Shown piece after piece: positions 1-7,159 of a stretch of 38,040 nucleotides of DNA; position 1 is the stretch's first letter; every line of letters begins with the position of its first letter. The position numbers were made by a program, and so were the translations under genes. The notes under the pieces are model-generated. The model was not told where the DNA came from and ran no database searches. It saw only the letters and a program-made list of their open reading frames with translations. The stretch comes from Candidatus Methanomethylicota archaeon (GTDB lineage Archaea > Thermoproteota > Methanomethylicia > Culexarchaeales > Culexarchaeaceae): NCBI GenBank assembly GCA_020833005.1, contig JAJHRD010000011.1, forward strand, positions 1 through 38,040. Direction: 5' to 3'.

Positions 1-707
1 TATTCATAAGGCCTGGATTGAAAATTGTTACTGTTGAGGATACGCCTGAACTTAACTTGCCACATGAGAATTGGGTTCAATTGACTGTTAGACCGGTATA
101 CGCTGTTGGCGTAACGTTGACTGAAATTAAGCTATATGACCTCGTTAAGTTGGCTTTGAGGTATAGGCCAGACTACCTCATTGTGGGTGAGATTAGGGGG
201 GAGGAGGCATTCGTATTATTCCAAGCTATGGCTACTGGGCATGGTGGATTATCAACAATACATGCTGAATCCCTAGATTACGCCATTAAGAGGATTATAT
301 CGCCACCAATGAACATCGCCCCAACATACGTGAAATTAATGAACATATTCCTACACATAGATAGGGTTGCAATGGAGGGGGTTGGTAGAACTGTTAGGAG
401 GGTTAGGGTTGTTCAGGAGATTGAGGATTACGAGAAGTATAGAACCATATCCACATGGAGTCCTGAAAAGGATGAGCATGTAGTCAATTTGGAGAATTCA
501 TGGTTAATAAGGGATGTTAGTGCAAAGACTGGTAAGAGTGTCGAGGAGCTTATGGAGGAAATTGAGAGGAGGAGTATGATTTTAAGGTGGCTTAGGATGA
601 AGGGGGTATACGACTTCATGGAGGTAAGCAGATACATATTCAGATACCACTACAACCCAAAGGAACTATACAATGAAGCTTTAACGGAAATTGGAAGCTT
701 AAGGTAG
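1..707 (+). CDS. Type II/IV secretion (pilus) ATPase, C-terminal part
   Basis: This is the C-terminal half of a VirB11/PilT/GspE-family hexameric ATPase that powers assembly of archaeal pili or secretion pseudopili at the inner face of the membrane. The frame is open from base 3 with the family block FIRPGLKIVTVEDTPEL, so the TTG at 18 is internal and the gene begins outside the window. Counting from that TTG, the Asp box IVTVEDTPEL comes first, then the Walker B-like RPDYLIVGEIRGEE near residues 50-61 and the His box GHGGLSTIHAES near 74-85. The Walker A region lies upstream, unseen. The remaining ~120 residues are the usual helical C-terminal extension. It converges with the pilin operon at 1914-7159, which encodes the matching membrane platform and pilins. 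Confidence 0.93.
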   Translation, partial: FIRPGLKIVTVEDTPELNLPHENWVQLTVRPVYAVGVTLTEIKLYDLVKLALRYRPDYLIVGEIRGEEAFVLFQAMATGHGGLSTIHAESLDYAIKRIISPPMNIAPTYVKLMNIFLHIDRVAMEGVGRTVRRVRVVQEIEDYEKYRTISTWSPEKDEHVVNLENSWLIRDVSAKTGKSVEELMEEIERRSMILRWLRMKGVYDFMEVSRYIFRYHYNPKELYNEALTEIGSLR

Positions 708-775: not shown

Positions 776-1912
776 TTGAAGGGTAGTGATGGTGGGGAGC
801 TCATAGACCTAGTGAACTTAGCTGAGGAGAAGCTCACAAAAGTTTTTGAGAGGATTGCAAGGGAGAAGGGGGATTGGAGGGTTAAGGGGTTCATAGTGCA
901 CAAGAAGATATCCCACGAGATACAAGTGGACTTCAAGGATGGTGAACCATACCTAGCAGTGGCAAGGGGGGTTGAGGGGGAGGTTAGGGGGAAGAAGGCA
1001 TACGACATAATAATGGAAGCTGCACCAAAAGCCACAGGCATAATAGAGGTGTATAAGGTTGATAGAGAGGCTGTGGAGGGGGATGCTAGGAATATTGCTG
1101 GAGCAAAGATATCTGGAGAGAGGGTGGGGATAGAGGACCTAAACTTATCGAGCAAACTTGAAGAGCATAGTGTTAGAATGAAGCTTATGCCGATTATAAA
1201 GACGCTAATACTGAGGGATGCAAAACAATTGGATGAGAAGAGTGGGGAGGTTAAGACCATAGAGGATGTACATGAAGCTTTGAGGAGGGAGATTGAGGAT
1301 AGTAGGGGTATCGTCAAATACATACTGGTAATCATTACGAAGGCGAAGAATTGGAAGAGCATTGAGGTAATAGCCAAAGATGGTAGGATTATGACTGCAA
1401 ACATTTATGGTGAGAGGGAGGCTTTATCTGGGGCTGAAGCACTGAGGAAGATATTCAACCTAAACAGCGAGGAAGTTGGCGCAGAAGCCAAATACATGAT
1501 ATTCGTATATGAGATTGAAGAGGATAAACTTAAGTTACTAGATATGAGCGAAGACGAATTGGCTGCGCAACCAGTAATTGAAGTTGAAAAGCCGAAGGTG
1601 GAAGCCAAGAGGAAGAGGGCTGTGAGGGTGGAGGTTCCTGAAAAGCCGAAACTAGACCCCAATAAGATTAAGGAGAGAGCTTCAAACTACTTTAAAGATA
1701 CATTGAACAACCTTGGATACACGCTTGAAGGGGTAAACGTAACTTATAGCGATGATAAAATGATTTTTGAAGTTAAGATTGGGAGGAGGGGGTGGGCTTT
1801 CAGGAGGGCGAATATTGATGCTGTCAGGGAGAAGCTTATGGATGATGCTTCATGGGTTGCAAGGGAGTTTGGATGGAGGGATCCTGTGGAAGTTAAAGTG
1901 GAGTTAACCTAA
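776..1912 (+). CDS. DUF2226/PATAN-like archaeal protein (unknown function)
   Basis: A 378-residue soluble protein with a TTG start preceded by GGTGA. Residues ~38-105 (VKGFIV...I.VDFKDGEPYLAVA...GEVRGKKAYDIIMEA...GIIEVYKVD) follow the pattern of the archaeal DUF2226 and bacterial DUF4388/PATAN domains: a small beta-rich module where 'G.I.V.F..G....A' is followed by 'G..A...I' and a G-I-I/E-V strand. The middle is charged and helical. A Lys/Glu/Pro-rich linker (residues ~262-292) leads to a C-terminal ~75-residue alpha/beta domain ending in EVKVELT. No signal peptide or membrane segment is visible. It lies just downstream of the secretion ATPase, and its stop is one base from the stop of the convergent pilin operon. 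A role in regulating the secretion machine is only inference from position. The family assignment is by pattern and could be wrong. Confidence 0.6.
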   Translation: MKGSDGGELIDLVNLAEEKLTKVFERIAREKGDWRVKGFIVHKKISHEIQVDFKDGEPYLAVARGVEGEVRGKKAYDIIMEAAPKATGIIEVYKVDREAVEGDARNIAGAKISGERVGIEDLNLSSKLEEHSVRMKLMPIIKTLILRDAKQLDEKSGEVKTIEDVHEALRREIEDSRGIVKYILVIITKAKNWKSIEVIAKDGRIMTANIYGEREALSGAEALRKIFNLNSEEVGAEAKYMIFVYEIEEDKLKLLDMSEDELAAQPVIEVEKPKVEAKRKRAVRVEVPEKPKLDPNKIKERASNYFKDTLNNLGYTLEGVNVTYSDDKMIFEVKIGRRGWAFRRANIDAVREKLMDDASWVAREFGWRDPVEVKVELT

Positions 1913-1913
1913 C

Positions 1914-2663
1914 TTAAAGCTCTACGAATACCCTGACGATCACACCATTATAGCTGAAGTACCCCTCAACGGTATCCACACTTTTATCCCTCTCACGGGT
2001 TAAAACTGTAAGATAGTTTAATCCTCCACCATAGTAAATGTAGCTTTCAGCATCATAAAACTCTTTACCATCAACAACTATTTTAACCACATCCAATGGA
2101 ACCCCAACACCACGATAAACATCGATAGCCGTAACATTCATGTAAACCCTAAACCTCTTACCATGTAAAGATTCCACAAATATATTTACATGCTCAACCT
2201 TCAAGCCCATGGTAACATTTAAATTGGAAACTCTATGTCCCATTGAAGTTGAATTTATCGTTAAACGACCATTGATCATTGAGTGCCATTCACCTCCAGT
2301 GCCCATCCAATTGAATTGTAGGGTTATGGATGCATTCACATTTAAGTCGAAGCCTGAGTATGCATATGTTACATTTCCAACCCATTGTTGAATGAATTTT
2401 GATGCTTCAAGGGTGGCTGATGAATTCGCCCTACCAAGATCGCCGCTACGCGTGAATTCATCATAAAACTTCTGTGATGCAATTATTAGTGAGGCTTCTA
2501 AAGCCCTCCCAAAATCTCCAGCCACAATCCTAGTGGGGCTGACCCCTAAATCCCTAAACCCCCCACCACTCCAAATGTGCATGTAGTATGCTGAGTATAT
2601 TGATAGCATTGATAGTAGGAGGGTCATTGTTGCGAGGATTAGGAAGAAGCCTCTACCCCTCAA
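1914..2663 (-). CDS. Pilin-like protein 5 of the pilus operon
   Basis: Last gene of the minus-strand pilin operon, 249 residues. It begins MRGRGFFLILATMTLLLSML: a short Arg/Gly-rich head followed directly by one hydrophobic helix (residues ~6-27), then an extracytoplasmic region rich in beta-type alternation and in N-x-S/T sites. This is the layout of TadE/TadG-like or minor archaeal pilins, and RG before the hydrophobic stretch is the likely prepilin-peptidase region. The Glu at position 5 of mature canonical pilins is absent. The TTG start at 2663 overlaps the TGA of the upstream gene (TTGA), with GGTGG immediately before. The protein itself is not recognisable by family. Confidence 0.72.
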   Translation of the reverse strand: MRGRGFFLILATMTLLLSMLSIYSAYYMHIWSGGGFRDLGVSPTRIVAGDFGRALEASLIIASQKFYDEFTRSGDLGRANSSATLEASKFIQQWVGNVTYAYSGFDLNVNASITLQFNWMGTGGEWHSMINGRLTINSTSMGHRVSNLNVTMGLKVEHVNIFVESLHGKRFRVYMNVTAIDVYRGVGVPLDVVKIVVDGKEFYDAESYIYYGGGLNYLTVLTRERDKSVDTVEGYFSYNGVIVRVFVEL

Positions 2664-3058
2664 CTTCCACCACCATATGAGACGCTTAGAGTCAATATGA
2701 ATGTCCTCCTCAAATCTACACTGGTGTAAATGTAGTTTAATGTAACTTCGGGTGTGAAGACAGCATGATTATATACTGTAGCCCTAAACCTAGAACTGCA
2801 AACGGTTAGATTGTAGTATACGTGTGGTGGTAGGGTGCTGGATAATATGAGCCTCACCTGGGAATCATCTCCATTGAATAGGGATTCAATAGCCTTAGAT
2901 GAAGCTATGGAGTCTAGGGCTGAGAGGCAACTCTTATCCAATGGAGCCTTAACCATGCTTGGGGATTGTGGTGTAAATACATCAACGATCATTGGAGCAA
3001 ACATCATTACAAGTATGAGAGAGAGTATTGCAGCCAATATGAATCCCTGACCCCTCAA
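2660..3058 (-). CDS. Pilin-like protein 4 of the pilus operon
   Basis: About 132 residues. I place the start at TTG 3058, not the first in-frame TTG at 3073: the ribosome-binding sequence GGTGGTGGGGG lies between them, and TTG 3058 overlaps the previous stop as TTGA exactly as at the two sibling junctions. The product then begins MRGQGFILAAILSLILVMMF, matching protein 5 (MRGRGFFLIL), with one transmembrane helix at ~5-25. A small exported domain follows, with Cys residues in DKSCLSAL and LTVCSSRF. The C-terminus YGGGS is encoded by the ribosome-binding site of the next gene. Likely a minor pilin or pseudopilin; no named family recognised. Confidence 0.7.
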   Translation of the reverse strand: MRGQGFILAAILSLILVMMFAPMIVDVFTPQSPSMVKAPLDKSCLSALDSIASSKAIESLFNGDDSQVRLILSSTLPPHVYYNLTVCSSRFRATVYNHAVFTPEVTLNYIYTSVDLRRTFILTLSVSYGGGS

Positions 3059-4116
3059 CCCCCACCACCCCAAACATAAAGCTTAACAATGTAGTTTAGG
3101 AAACCCATGGATACTACTCTGGAAGATGATGCAGCCCCAGCAGGCACTGCGCCGCCGAAACTTAGATTCGGTGTTGATAGAAGTCCAGCTTGAGTGTATA
3201 TTGGAGCTGGATATGTTGTGAAGACAGCCCTCAAACCACTCGAATCCACAGCTGCAAATAAGACTGCATCTGGATCGAGATTGTAATCCACCCCACTCCA
3301 ACCATCATTGTAGACCCTATAAATGTATAAGCCTCCAACAGTGGACGTATAATTGAATTTAACGTCGGTCATGAAATATCTTCCAATATATTTCTGGAAT
3401 ATCATTTTCAAACTTGAACCGCTTAAACTTAATGGGGATATTATGTAGTAGCCCACTGTAAAGCCGAAGTATGTTTCACCATCAACCCAATAGCTCAACG
3501 AGTATAAGCCATTATAGTTGGCTATGGCAACAATAGCCTTAACTGGATGACTAAACTGTAATGGTGACTTCTTATCATAGGAAAACTTCACGCCAACTGG
3601 GGATACATATGCTGATATTATGGTTAGATCAGAATCGCTAGTTACATCGGAGCCATCGAGCGTGTAAACCTTAACCTCAATATTGTAGGAGCCCCCAACA
3701 GCCTTACAAGTGATTGTAGTGTTGAGTATGGGTGTGAAGTTTATTGAGAAGCCTCTATCAACACCATCAACCCAACCATTTAAACCATATGGCGATGGCC
3801 TAAATGGAACTGAATTTAGGTTTGATGGTTTACCTATGAGATTGTAGGTTAAGAGGTTAACTTTATCCCTATCCACACCACCATAACCTCCAATGCCGAA
3901 ATCCATGATGGCGCCGCCCCTAAGGACCCCGACATCCCAATCCCTTGGGAGCCCTTCAAAATTCACCAATTTATCCATGAGCACTGAAACTTCACTATCA
4001 AGTGGTATGTAGGTTATGGATGGAGGTTTGGGTGCTGAACTTATTAAAGTTGTAATTGAACTCAATATCAATATGAATATTGATACGCTAACCACAGCTT
4101 CAATAGGCTCCTTCAA
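3055..4116 (-). CDS. Pilin-like protein 3 of the pilus operon
   Basis: Largest exported pilin-like subunit of the operon, 353 residues. It starts MKEPIEAVVSVSIFILILSS: a hydrophobic helix at ~7-27 with Glu residues just before it, resembling archaeal pilin N-termini. A long Gly-, Ser-, Tyr- and Asn-rich beta-type exported domain follows, including Gly-rich stretches near residues 68-80. The TTG start at 4116 overlaps the upstream TGA (TTGA), and GGTGGTGGAGG precedes it. The C-terminus ends WGGGG, again the translation of the next gene's ribosome-binding site. The size suggests a tip or adhesive minor pilin, but that is inference. Confidence 0.72.
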   Translation of the reverse strand: MKEPIEAVVSVSIFILILSSITTLISSAPKPPSITYIPLDSEVSVLMDKLVNFEGLPRDWDVGVLRGGAIMDFGIGGYGGVDRDKVNLLTYNLIGKPSNLNSVPFRPSPYGLNGWVDGVDRGFSINFTPILNTTITCKAVGGSYNIEVKVYTLDGSDVTSDSDLTIISAYVSPVGVKFSYDKKSPLQFSHPVKAIVAIANYNGLYSLSYWVDGETYFGFTVGYYIISPLSLSGSSLKMIFQKYIGRYFMTDVKFNYTSTVGGLYIYRVYNDGWSGVDYNLDPDAVLFAAVDSSGLRAVFTTYPAPIYTQAGLLSTPNLSFGGAVPAGAASSSRVVSMGFLNYIVKLYVWGGGG

Positions 4117-4586
4117 CCTCCACCACCCACATATACGAGTTCCAGGGTGAAGCTTGAAGAGCTAACTCTAACTATTCTAACGTAATTCCACCTAACACCA
4201 CTATAAACGGTGGATTCAACGATGCTGAAGACGTATGGGGATATGGGTAGCTTTAGGGTTACTGTGGTTGTGGGTTGAAATGTGGGCTTAATGGTTAATG
4301 TGACAATACCATTATTGGAGGATATTGTTATTGAGTATGGGCCTAGGGGACAGTTGTCTGGAATATTCAATCTAAACATGACAATGCCACCCACATTCAA
4401 TCCATAAGCGTGATCCACAGCTTCAAGTAGCTGCGATGAAATTAGGCTTGCAACCCCCCTCAAATCAGCCGCCGACACATCAGCCTTATAACTCGCTGCA
4501 AGTATGCCTGAATAGTATGATGTTAGTAGGAATATGGAGAGTAGGGAGACCATGATTATCGTAGTTGATATTGGCGATGTTGGAAT
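4113..4586 (-). CDS. Pilin-like protein 2, probable ATT start
   Basis: A conventional call would start at ATG 4553 (146 residues, MVSLLSIFLLTSYYSG...). That ATG has no ribosome-binding sequence and cuts into the hydrophobic segment. Reading upstream in the same frame to the previous stop adds W-L-I-P-T-S-P-I-S-T-T-I-I before that Met. The result, PTSPISTTIIMVSLLSIFLL, looks like the archaeal pilin signature SPI(I)STxII. A strong GGGGGTGA (4600-4593) sits 6 bases before the in-frame ATT at 4586, so ATT is the best-placed start although no ATG, GTG or TTG exists there. The rest is a small exported beta-type domain ending YVGGGG. The first eleven residues need experimental support; the gene itself is secure by operon context. 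Confidence 0.65.
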   Translation of the reverse strand: MPTSPISTTIIMVSLLSIFLLTSYYSGILAASYKADVSAADLRGVASLISSQLLEAVDHAYGLNVGGIVMFRLNIPDNCPLGPYSITISSNNGIVTLTIKPTFQPTTTVTLKLPISPYVFSIVESTVYSGVRWNYVRIVRVSSSSFTLELVYVGGGG

Positions 4587-4592
4587 AAGCCA

Positions 4593-5372
4593 TCACCCCC
4601 AAACATAATTGACCCTATGAATTACAAGTCTAATTGTGAGGTCTGAAAGTTTTGGGACAAAGATGGATTTACCCCCAAGAAGTCTATTGCCAAGATAAAG
4701 CTTAATGCTCACTTGCGCATCAGATGAGCCAATATTCTTCTTATATATGTCATTTCTAACAGTTCCAGCGTAATTCACTGCCAGCATGTTTGATGCTGAG
4801 CCTCCTGCCGTAGTCCATGAAACATCTATGTATGTTAATTCAATTATGAAGTTGCTGCCGAAACTATATGTTTTGACTAGGATCTTTGTGAAGTTTAGGG
4901 ATATGCATGGTCCACCAACATCTGAATCCCAGTATGATGTTAGCATGGGTATATCGTATATGTTGTCCACAAATGGGCTGCTAACCCCCATTATAACACC
5001 ATAACTTGTGGATGCAAATCTACTCCCAATACACTTAACCGTTAATGTGGAATTGTCAATGACTTGTGATGGTGGAGGATTGGGGATTCCGCTTACCTCA
5101 AGCCTCAGAATAGCGTTATCCACGTAGAATCCCAATCCAATGTATCTTGATGGGAAGCTGAATTCATATTTTAAACCACTTGTAATTGAGTTTATGGTGG
5201 CATATGCTAAGTCCATCATCATCCCCCTAGAAGCTTCAAAGCTACTTGACTCCACAGATGACTCCAGTATGTAGAATGCATATCCAAAGGCTGCAACAGT
5301 CAATATTATGACCACTGAGGTTATTATTACACTGGATACTGCACTCTCACCGGAACTATTCACGGTTTTCAC
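4593..5372 (-). CDS. Pilin-like protein 1 of the pilus operon
   Basis: A 259-residue protein beginning MKTVNSSGESAVSSVIITSV, then VIILTVAAFGYAFYILES. The S-G-E-S-A-V-S-S-V-I-I-T run fits archaeal type IV pilin N-termini (polar head, Gly before the cleavage point, then a ~22-residue hydrophobic helix). The remaining ~220 residues form an exported beta-rich domain with N-x-S/T sites and a conserved-looking Cys pair (VKCIGS, GGPCISL). The GTG start overlaps the stop of the T2SF gene as GTGA, with GGGAGG just upstream, implying translational coupling to the assembly platform. It is the operon's most canonical pilin, so possibly the major one. Confidence 0.75.
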   Translation of the reverse strand: MKTVNSSGESAVSSVIITSVVIILTVAAFGYAFYILESSVESSSFEASRGMMMDLAYATINSITSGLKYEFSFPSRYIGLGFYVDNAILRLEVSGIPNPPPSQVIDNSTLTVKCIGSRFASTSYGVIMGVSSPFVDNIYDIPMLTSYWDSDVGGPCISLNFTKILVKTYSFGSNFIIELTYIDVSWTTAGGSASNMLAVNYAGTVRNDIYKKNIGSSDAQVSIKLYLGNRLLGGKSIFVPKLSDLTIRLVIHRVNYVWG

Positions 5373-7159
5373 CTCCCAAAAGCTCCGAATAGCATAGCCA
5401 TCCTAGGTGAAGTTAGGATTACAGCCATTGATAAGAGCGATAATAGTAGGGCATGCTTAAACCCTGAAGCCAGAACTCCAGTGGAAACCTTTCCAGCCAT
5501 TAAACCCATGAATAGTACGTTTAGAACTGTTGCTGGAACTATTATTCTCACAGCCACATGATACTCAACTATTCCAACTGCAAATGTGGACATGTATACG
5601 GCCATGAACATTATTGAGCTTATCAATATGACTGCTCCAAGGTATGGTATGACGAGCAGGATCCTTATGGATGCAGCCCTCTCCCTCTCCACAGCTTCAC
5701 TCATCTCAGCGAAGTATGCGAGATTCTCAATGGTTTCAGGGGTTCCACCACCAACCTCGATGGCATCTATCAATGTGAATAGGAATACGTTTGCCCTCCA
5801 AACCTTAACCCTAGCCATCAAATCCTCATAAACCCTCCTAAGTGGGAAACCTAAGGCTATTTTACTTGCAGCTTCCCTAAGATACTTTGTGAAGTATCCG
5901 TAATCCCTCTCAGCTAGTGATGTTATGCACCTCTCAGGGGATAAACCAGTCTTCCTAACCTCCACCATATCCCTAAGAAACTTGACAACACCACTGGATA
6001 TCTTGCTATACTTCCTAAAGACAAATATTTCGTATAGTGTTGATGGGAGTAGGGATATGAATAGCACAATTGAGAGAGCAAATGCAGGTGCATAGACGAG
6101 CTCAACGCCGAGGTATGTTAATATAGAGTTTATTGCCCAAACAGCCCTTGCTGATAGCCATGCGAAGGGTTGTAGTGAGACTGGATAGAAGTATGGGATG
6201 AAGGCTATGTATGATAGGAATATGAATATTGGGAGACTTATGGATAGGAATACTATGTATGGATCCCATATTAGTCCAGGTTCACGATACTGAACTAAGT
6301 CCGATAGGTATATGACCATTATGGATAGGAATGGCATTAAGAGGTATGAGAAGAAGAATAGTGAGTATACGTTTATGCCTGGAATGGATATTCTGGCTAT
6401 GGATATTGTTATCATGTACATCACGTTGAGTGTCATGATGAGTAGGAAGGATGCAGCCAGATATGATTCCAATAGGGTTGACATCTTCTCACCAGCAGAC
6501 TTGATCTTAACCACCAATCCGCTGAATACATCCCTAGACCTCTTGATAAGGTAGTCGACAACGTCTCCACCAGCACCAACAGTGGCAACGTAACCGAATA
6601 TCACATCCTTAATCAGCATACTCTTAACCCTGGAAGCTAAATCATCAAATGCGGATAGGGGATCCCAACCCATAGCTCTAACCATAAGCTTAAACCTCTT
6701 AGCAGCTTTGGAAAACCTTTTGAATAGGATTTCAGCTGAATCCAAACGCTCGAAGGCTGTGTATGGCGATATCCCACCAGTAACCATAACACTCATATAT
6801 GCAAAAACGTATGGAGCCTCCTGATCGTATCCAGCAGCATTATTAATGCTTAAAGCTTTTGGCAGTATGAAACCAGCAATAATGAAGACCAATACTGGGA
6901 GGAATATTGAGAATGCCAATATGAAGGGTATGTAGGCTATCAGAAGGCTTATGATCGATACATAGGATATGATTATGCTTGCGAATATTGAAACCACAAA
7001 GGAGAAGCCACCAATAGATGCATAAATCTCAGGATGCAAACCAATACCTGAAGACTTAATGTCAACATATATGTTTGGGTAAAATCTCAATAGAAGCCTC
7101 CCAGCCCAATTGAAATATCTATGAACAACATCAATGAACGTCAAGGCATAATACCACAA
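5369..7159 (-). CDS. Type II secretion F / TadC / FlaJ-like membrane platform protein
   Basis: Polytopic membrane platform on which the secretion ATPase acts to polymerise pilins. It carries two GspF-type domains: the first around GGISPYTAFERL...WDPLSAFDDLA...KDVIFGYVATVGAGGDVVDYL, the second around KTGLSPERCITSLAERD...GFPLRRVYEDLMARV...FTLIDAIEVGGGTPETIENL. Hydrophobic helices precede, separate and follow them, as in archaeal FlaJ/TadC double-domain proteins. The longest open frame begins at 7342 but would overlap the divergent gene and translates to low-complexity sequence. A TATA box (7181-7190) lies about 25 bp before TTG 7159, so I use that start (596 residues; TTG 7144 is the alternative). 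First gene of the six-gene pilin operon. Confidence 0.9.
   Translation of the reverse strand: MWYYALTFIDVVHRYFNWAGRLLLRFYPNIYVDIKSSGIGLHPEIYASIGGFSFVVSIFASIIISYVSIISLLIAYIPFILAFSIFLPVLVFIIAGFILPKALSINNAAGYDQEAPYVFAYMSVMVTGGISPYTAFERLDSAEILFKRFSKAAKRFKLMVRAMGWDPLSAFDDLASRVKSMLIKDVIFGYVATVGAGGDVVDYLIKRSRDVFSGLVVKIKSAGEKMSTLLESYLAASFLLIMTLNVMYMITISIARISIPGINVYSLFFFSYLLMPFLSIMVIYLSDLVQYREPGLIWDPYIVFLSISLPIFIFLSYIAFIPYFYPVSLQPFAWLSARAVWAINSILTYLGVELVYAPAFALSIVLFISLLPSTLYEIFVFRKYSKISSGVVKFLRDMVEVRKTGLSPERCITSLAERDYGYFTKYLREAASKIALGFPLRRVYEDLMARVKVWRANVFLFTLIDAIEVGGGTPETIENLAYFAEMSEAVERERAASIRILLVIPYLGAVILISSIMFMAVYMSTFAVGIVEYHVAVRIIVPATVLNVLFMGLMAGKVSTGVLASGFKHALLLSLLSMAVILTSPRMAMLFGAFGR

Follow-up and report, generated by a model that had tools for sequence, protein, structure and literature searches.

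In Haloferax volcanii, the pilB1-C1 genes (clade 4C; hvo_0620/0619) serve adhesion, and their pilin gene (hvo_0618) overlaps pilC (2019 Haloferax paper, PMC6491452). Haloarchaeal 4C pilins have been derived from euryarchaeal clade 2, and the 3 to 4 additional components of Desulfurococcales loci of subclade 4A, which were not traceable to any source, were proposed to be a minor pilin set (Makarova, Koonin and Albers 2016, PMC4858521). The pil-2 transcript comprises seven genes, including those for three predicted prepilins (Losensky et al., PMC4292770), and the predicted pilins of the Ups, Aap, and bindosome systems of Sulfolobus have all been described as PilA family (PMC4858521). Assembly of bacterial pili is initiated by the core minor pilins, which form a complex at the tip (PMC10191384). 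Here, we analyzed a 38,040-nucleotide stretch from a Candidatus Methanomethylicota archaeon (contig JAJHRD010000011.1, positions 1 to 38,040, referred to as the window; our contig C11 of a 2.23 Mb draft assembly). On its minus strand, positions 1914-7159 encode a FlaJ/TadC platform protein followed by five dissimilar single-helix proteins, which we named P1-P5 by translation order (Table 1). On the strength of sequence comparisons, we conclude that P1-P5 are a real, ordered, and widespread cassette of probable minor pilins, two members of which, P2 and P3, appear to lack a prepilin leader.

We ranked 220 loci by FlaJ similarity to the window, took the best 80, and dropped two (L094 and L103) in which no FlaJ frame was called; the remaining 78 named loci and the window make 79. 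A locus was considered roomy if it offered at least 4.5 kb behind FlaJ (51 of 79). Competitive assignment over the FlaJ loci used one profile per slot, seeded from 7-13 loci, and one for the PilA-like major pilin; free iteration was discarded, as the slot profiles drifted into one another. Because the seeds were chosen partly by gene order, the order in the seed loci is built in. Among the 51 roomy loci, 21 read P1-P2-P3-P4-P5, 2 carry the full set inverted, 8 carry shorter in-order sets (4 P1-P2-P3-P4, 3 P1-P1-P2-P3-P4, and 1 P1-P1-P2-P3), and 2 have P1 alone. The 28 less roomy loci yielded 1 full set, 10 leading parts of the set, and nothing in 17. No order violation was found among the 79 loci. 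Record titles of the loci in the cassette search include Desulfurococcales, Thermofilaceae, Bathyarchaeota, Brockarchaeota, Nezhaarchaeota, and Nitrososphaeria, among others. This recurrence of homologous cassettes in the same order in many genomes makes the operon more than a chance arrangement. A first, sequence-only reading of the window had found the combination unlike the archaellum or Ups/Aap operons. The set is not peculiar to this genome: it recurs in order in all but the last of the groups just named and in others.

The P2 profile alone identified members in 53 of 200 evenly drawn Thermoproteota genomes (30 of 93 genera), and relatives of the window's FlaJ are present in 51 of the 61 genomes searched. 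A scan of genome contigs with single sequences found no relative; an alignment-based scan did. Desulfurococcales records carry P1-P4, and in some of them an unrecognised gene with a similar N-terminus lies in the place of P5. In five Desulfurococcales-type loci (L040, L079, L080, L084, and L085), P2 is 819-886 amino acids (aa) long and P1 is doubled.

The cassette has a probable counterpart in haloarchaea. In Haloferax mediterranei, the pHME505 pil operon has DUF7287, DUF7288, DUF7261, DUF7266, and DUF7289 directly behind PilC, in that order. As in the window, five overlapping or abutting genes directly follow the platform gene, and each matches one slot at the profile level. The two differ in gene order (P3-P4-P5-P2-P1 on pHME505), in the ATPase gene, which is collinear on pHME505, and in the leader-like R[GA] that all five haloarchaeal proteins possess but that P2 and P3 of the window do not; sequence identity is very low. 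We scanned the members of each slot alignment singly against Pfam and paired each slot with the family most often matched: P1 with DUF7289 (6 of 26 members; best 0.0045), P2 with DUF7266 (12 of 31; best 5.9e-6), P4 with DUF7288 (3 of 21; best 0.0012), and P5 with DUF7261 (7 of 20; best 1.7e-5). Profile comparison completes this one-to-one pairing with P3 and DUF7287. In a 5 × 5 profile-profile matrix, with haloarchaeal profiles of 2-3 sequences each, the diagonal was best in every row and column (probabilities of 92, 94, 78, 43, and 17% for P1 to P5). Slot profiles run against 320 haloarchaeal open reading frames ranked their own partner first in 5 of 5 cases (E values of 7e-9, 5e-11, 0.015, 0.0019, and 0.012 for P1 to P5). 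A further feature common to P3 and DUF7287 is a hydrophobic-Trp strand at the C-terminus, with [VIL]W within the last 14 residues in 26 of 36 P3 members.

Comparable loci occur in Halobaculum halophilum, where five genes lie at the equivalent place (the first, which is the sole one scanned against Pfam, is DUF7287), and in Salinibaculum (DUF7287, 7288, 7266, and 7289). The FlaJ of the window gave no match on the plasmids, and the haloarchaeal loci were reached via the ATPase. Haloarchaeal FlaJ proteins score 94-68 bits with the window-type FlaJ profile (15 sequences) versus 56-52 bits with the other type (3 sequences); because the window-type profile scores higher, a gain of the whole haloarchaeal operon from Thermoproteota would fit as well as common ancestry. 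Assignment of the five proteins to one known archaeal pilus operon would have contradicted the sequence-only reading; the match with five families behind PilC in haloarchaea does so in part, though these families have no assigned function.

To count processing sites, we took the most upstream possible start of each protein and looked for a [KR][GA] pair near the helix, omitting identical sequences and proteins without a hydrophobic window; the pool combined named and unnamed loci, with some genomes represented twice by slightly different frames. A site is present in 45 of 57 P1, 1 of 44 P2, 1 of 43 P3, 23 of 39 P4, 26 of 29 P5, and 85 of 106 major pilin sequences, and the helix is preceded by a median of 10, 4, 3, 10, 7, and 8 residues, respectively. 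Judged by these predicted N-termini, P2 and P3 are without a prepilin leader. Not all five are ordinary prepilins, then: P1, P4, and P5 carry or plausibly carry a leader, and P2 and P3 appear to have none.

In the haloarchaeal partner families of P2 and P3, an R[GA] pair precedes the helix in every sequence (3 of 3 for each family). In the profile alignments, with the register worked out by hand, the haloarchaeal -1 residue aligns with the first residue of window P3 and with the ATT-encoded position of P2; residues -1 and +5, like the FlaFind motif, are used here in their conventional sense. Alignments for the start-column counts and the fold predictions held 31 of 38 P2 and 30 of 36 P3 members of the window-plus-named collection. 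Of the 31 P2 rows, 22 begin in that column and 26 carry a small residue at position 2, as methionine aminopeptidase would accept; P3 has an acidic residue (E/D) at +5 in 27 of the 28 rows having a letter there. Given these starts at the -1 column, the +5 acid, and the small second residue, we propose that the loss of the leader ended precisely at the cleavage site. The start of P2 itself is likely ATT 4586-4584: no ATG, GTG, or TTG lies ahead of the helix, and the first ATG (4553) is inside the hydrophobic helix. This ATT lies 5 bases behind a GGTGAT, is the same in congeners G001 and G002, and occupies the position where most relatives place their start codon.

P2 and P3 were modeled with AlphaFold. 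The P2 model (pLDDT 93.1) has a helix at residues 7-62 (56 residues) followed by a beta domain. In a closer structural alignment against 998 chains, the four top-ranked chains for P2 (Z between 5.2 and 4.1, aligned over 70-100 residues, against 3.3 for the next) were the pseudopilins 9a1f_R (Z 5.2, 100 residues, 3.3 Å) and 5bw0_B (Z 4.5, 70 residues, 3.3 Å) and the pilins 3sok_B (Z 4.2, 96 residues, 4.2 Å) and 4noa (Z 4.1, 75 residues, 3.6 Å). The match to the pilin fold is modest, with Z only 4-5, and values of that size are common. The P3 model (pLDDT 81) combines a helix with two beta domains that are immunoglobulin-like or macroglobulin-like (best Z 8.0, 86 residues, 3.0 Å), a resemblance that, on this model, is nothing specific.

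Leaderless proteins of this shape might not be filament subunits. P2 and P3 could instead be permanently membrane-anchored machine parts, i.e., stator or platform partners like ArlF/ArlG or PilN/PilO, with only P1, P4, and P5 in the filament. The absent leaders and the two immunoglobulin-like domains of P3 speak for such a role, as does the seven-gene pil-2 transcript with its 3 FlaFind-positive prepilin genes (PMC4292770). ArlF and ArlG are not in the structural match lists for P2 or P3, an absence that excludes nothing. We nevertheless consider machine parts rather unlikely, since the haloarchaeal counterparts of both proteins retain R[GA] before the helix, P2 is pilin-shaped with its long helix, and P3 keeps the +5 acid almost throughout. 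It is more doubtful still that P2 and P3 possess a very short or non-canonical leader (e.g., M-K-x or M-H-A) that the peptidase removes. Some processed pilins here do have leaders down to MRA or MKA, and P3 often begins with MK or MH, but P2 is mostly uncharged before the helix, P3 mostly has no Gly or Ala at the expected place, and cutting after residue 3 would presumably upset the register of the +5 acid.

Several results weigh against P1-P5 being one conserved minor-pilin set. First, 18 of the 51 roomy loci have no recognisable cassette, and genome G004, from the same family, has FlaJ, the ATPase, and a 378-aa gene that also neighbors the cassette in the window, but no cassette, nor does the P3 profile find one elsewhere in this genome (45% complete); machine and cassette can therefore part. 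Second, P1 of the window has no basic residue before the Gly, and the P4 site is present in only the 23 of 39 sequences given above. Third, Foldseek found no match in the PDB at E <= 0.001 for P2 or P3. Fourth, the window's own P1-P5 have no significant match in Pfam or NCBIfam, so that homology runs via their relatives; P3 members gave only scattered Pfam matches and no DUF7287, and P3 reaches E 0.015 at best in the reverse search. Finally, with the N-terminal helix removed, the profile-profile probability stays at 86% for P2 and falls to a weak 25% for P3, 3% for P1, and <1% for P4 and P5.

With the signal of P1, P4, and P5 confined to the N-terminal helix, the haloarchaeal match could reflect only a shared grammar of pilin N-termini, the correspondence of five slots being coincidental. 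We find such a coincidence hard to credit: the five slots lead to five different families, correctly each time, both groups have the set immediately after the platform gene, and the match of P2 survives removal of its helix.

At gene level, an ATPase, FlaJ/TadC, a prepilin peptidase, and a PilA-type major pilin are all present, and by its gene content the locus is a type IV pilus machine of known kind. The ATPase fragment of the window equals residues 290-523 of the complete 523-aa gene in G001, and N-terminal residues 1-330 are found on contigs C39 and C109 of the window's own genome, ~98% identical to the G001 gene (C39 97.9%, C109 97.6%). As both contigs carry this part, the draft has two near-identical copies of that end. 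Both G001 (L035) and C39 carry, divergently to the ATPase, a gene for a PilA-type major pilin (GISPVIATVIL), recognized by profile and motif only. The single A24 prepilin peptidase detected in the genome (PF01478 over cut-off) lies at C19:16558-16899. Least plausible of the alternatives is that the operon builds not a pilus but a short pseudopilus, which would expel a substrate in the manner of type II secretion. P2 does have its best structural match in a chain from an XcpGHIJK pseudopilus model, but Z values around 5.2 are common and the ATPase has a gene for a PilA-like major pilin beside it.

Our preferred reading, which we hold to be probable rather than secure, is that P1-P5 are a dedicated, old set of minor pilins, which would initiate and cap a pilus. 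The shaft of this pilus would consist of a separate major pilin, the PilA-like protein whose gene lies next to the ATPase gene, in divergent orientation, on the neighboring contig. By analogy with bacterial minor-pilin complexes, P1-P5, with one role each, would come together on the FlaJ platform, provide the seed for filament growth, and finally occupy the tip; their one-copy order and coupling suggest fixed proportions. The leaders of P1, P4, and P5 would be cut by the single A24 peptidase. P2 and P3 have a start codon where the cleaved Gly/Ala should be and would therefore be inserted into the membrane as mature proteins, competent for assembly independently of the peptidase. P5 varies in length from 116 residues (in one member cut by a contig end) to 1461, with a median of 767 versus medians of 162-383 in the other slots, and 4 of 20 members contain Flg_new_2 repeats; this variation and these repeats make it the best candidate for a tip adhesin. 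P5 would probably be the outermost subunit.

A fuller historical scenario is more tentative, somewhat short of an even call. The five-gene set may predate the split of Thermoproteota and Halobacteria (or have moved as a whole); in Thermoproteota, P2 and P3 would have shed their leaders at the cleavage point, P2 would be matured by methionine aminopeptidase, and the peptidase-independent pair would seed the pilus. A mini-set of P2-, P3-, and P4-like genes on contig C19, described below, would be a reduced form.

Other known systems resemble the locus in part. Bacterial GspHIJK and FimU-PilVWXE minor pilins retain their leaders. They likewise comprise a few dissimilar minor pilins that seed the tip (PMC10191384), and the P2 model resembles pseudopilins; no sequence relation to the window set is shown. 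The H. volcanii pilB1-C1 adhesion pilus operon resembles the window in having a pilin gene that overlaps pilC. Ups, Aap, and the bindosome of Sulfolobus have an ATPase and FlaJ homologues in common with it. The Ups pilus was rejected as an assignment (63.6 bits versus the UpsF NCBIfam cut-off of 400), as was the bindosome (51 bits versus the BasF cut-off of 1300); these scores, far under the curated cut-offs, support a locus unlike Ups, as the sequence-only reading had it, and unlike the bindosome. The window ATPase, a truncated gene, resembles FlaI of the archaellum at 177 bits versus a cut-off of 550. No archaellum gene (FlaH, FlaF, FlaG) was recognised beside the ATPase when its neighbors were read by eye, and the archaellum as described in the available text of PMC4858521 does not include the five-slot set.

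What is new in cassettes of the window type would be two leaderless members within a known kind of machine. In the open-access literature, we found no paper under the five DUF names or on pili of Culexarchaeia, and no claim of leaderless pilins or five-pilin archaeal sets in titles or abstract openings; the cross-phylum identity of the cassette appears to be unreported there. The subclade 4A account, as far as its available text goes, does not state the five-slot homology, the haloarchaeal link, or the missing leaders (PMC4858521). DUF7261, 7266, 7287, 7288, and 7289 and the untraced Thermoproteota counterparts would gain a common identity, which questions the published view of extra components without traceable origin (PMC4858521) and that of purely euryarchaeal haloarchaeal pilins behind crenarchaeal-type PilB/PilC (PMC4858521, PMC6491452). 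If pilins do start at their mature N-terminus, one can test directly whether assembly itself depends on leader cleavage or only its timing does.

Table 1. Features of the pilus locus in the window
Feature	Position	Strand	Description
Secretion ATPase, PilB/ArlI type	1..707	+	C-terminal part, cut by contig start; Pfam T2SSE 1.1e-20
378-aa cytosolic protein	776..1912	+	Between ATPase and P5; relatives in 3/24 compared loci
P5	1914..2663	-	249 aa; leader RGRG; tip/adhesin candidate; DUF7261 counterpart
P4	2660..3058	-	132 aa; short pilin; leader RGQ; TTG 3058; DUF7288 counterpart
P3	3055..4116	-	353 aa; N-terminal helix and two beta domains; predicted leaderless; DUF7287 counterpart (profile comparison)
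P2	4113..4586	-	~157 aa; pilin-shaped; predicted leaderless; probable start ATT 4586-4584; DUF7266 counterpart
P2 start region	4584..4597	-	GGTGAT ribosome-binding-like site, 5-nt spacer, ATT
P1	4593..5372	-	259 aa; pilin-like; N-terminus SSGESAVSSVIIT; cleavage site atypical; slot profile; DUF7289 counterpart
FlaJ/TadC/PilC platform	5369..7159	-	Operon gene 1; TTG start; Pfam T2SSF 1e-15, two stretches, over cut-off

The coordinates and sizes of the six-gene operon given by the sequence-only reading proved correct. Its statement that all ends overlap or abut is right for four of the five junctions (FlaJ/P1, P2/P3, P3/P4, and P4/P5), which overlap by 4 nucleotides (nt); P1/P2 is the sole junction without overlap, the likely ATT start of P2 lying 6 nt past the P1 stop. 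The five proteins do look like distinct pilin-like roles and not duplicates: compared pairwise, they share no likeness beyond the N-terminal helix, with a best profile-profile probability of 7% (P3/P5), and duplication was rejected for want of anything else in common. P4 has an alternative in-frame TTG upstream, at 3073. Between 2660 and 4130, the codons for the Gly-Gly-Gly-Gly-like C-terminal tails of P2, P3, and P4 double as the G-rich ribosome-binding stretch ahead of the gene that follows.

The converging ATPase had also been noted; it does lie on the plus strand, but only as a C-terminal fragment, and the 378-aa gene, which went unmentioned, stands in between. Convergence is not the general arrangement, as congeners G001 and G002 also have a collinear ATPase-FlaJ-P1-P5 version (L049/L050). 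The relatives of the 378-aa gene lie in L035, L036, and L037, and its protein matches no Pfam or NCBIfam family over cut-off. In G004 (L036/L066, 2606-5553), the whole five-gene cassette is absent, and 33 bases separate FlaJ from the 378-aa gene.

The window's own genome has further slot-like genes. On C19 (L160, 3347-5195), P2-, P3-, and P4-like genes lie in that order, divergent from the prepilin peptidase gene; their proteins of 147, 117, and 127 aa match P2 (4e-8), P3 (0.0056), and P4 (3e-8), and a 223-aa protein with an RGEAFLIF start and no profile match follows. G002 has a counterpart mini-set on its contig C3 (L161, 3918-5110), and both mini-sets are without ATPase or FlaJ. A second pilus locus lies on C1 (L057, 3623-12969), where a 1042-aa exported protein is encoded directly behind FlaJ, followed by P3-like (7e-5) and P4-like (3e-26) genes.

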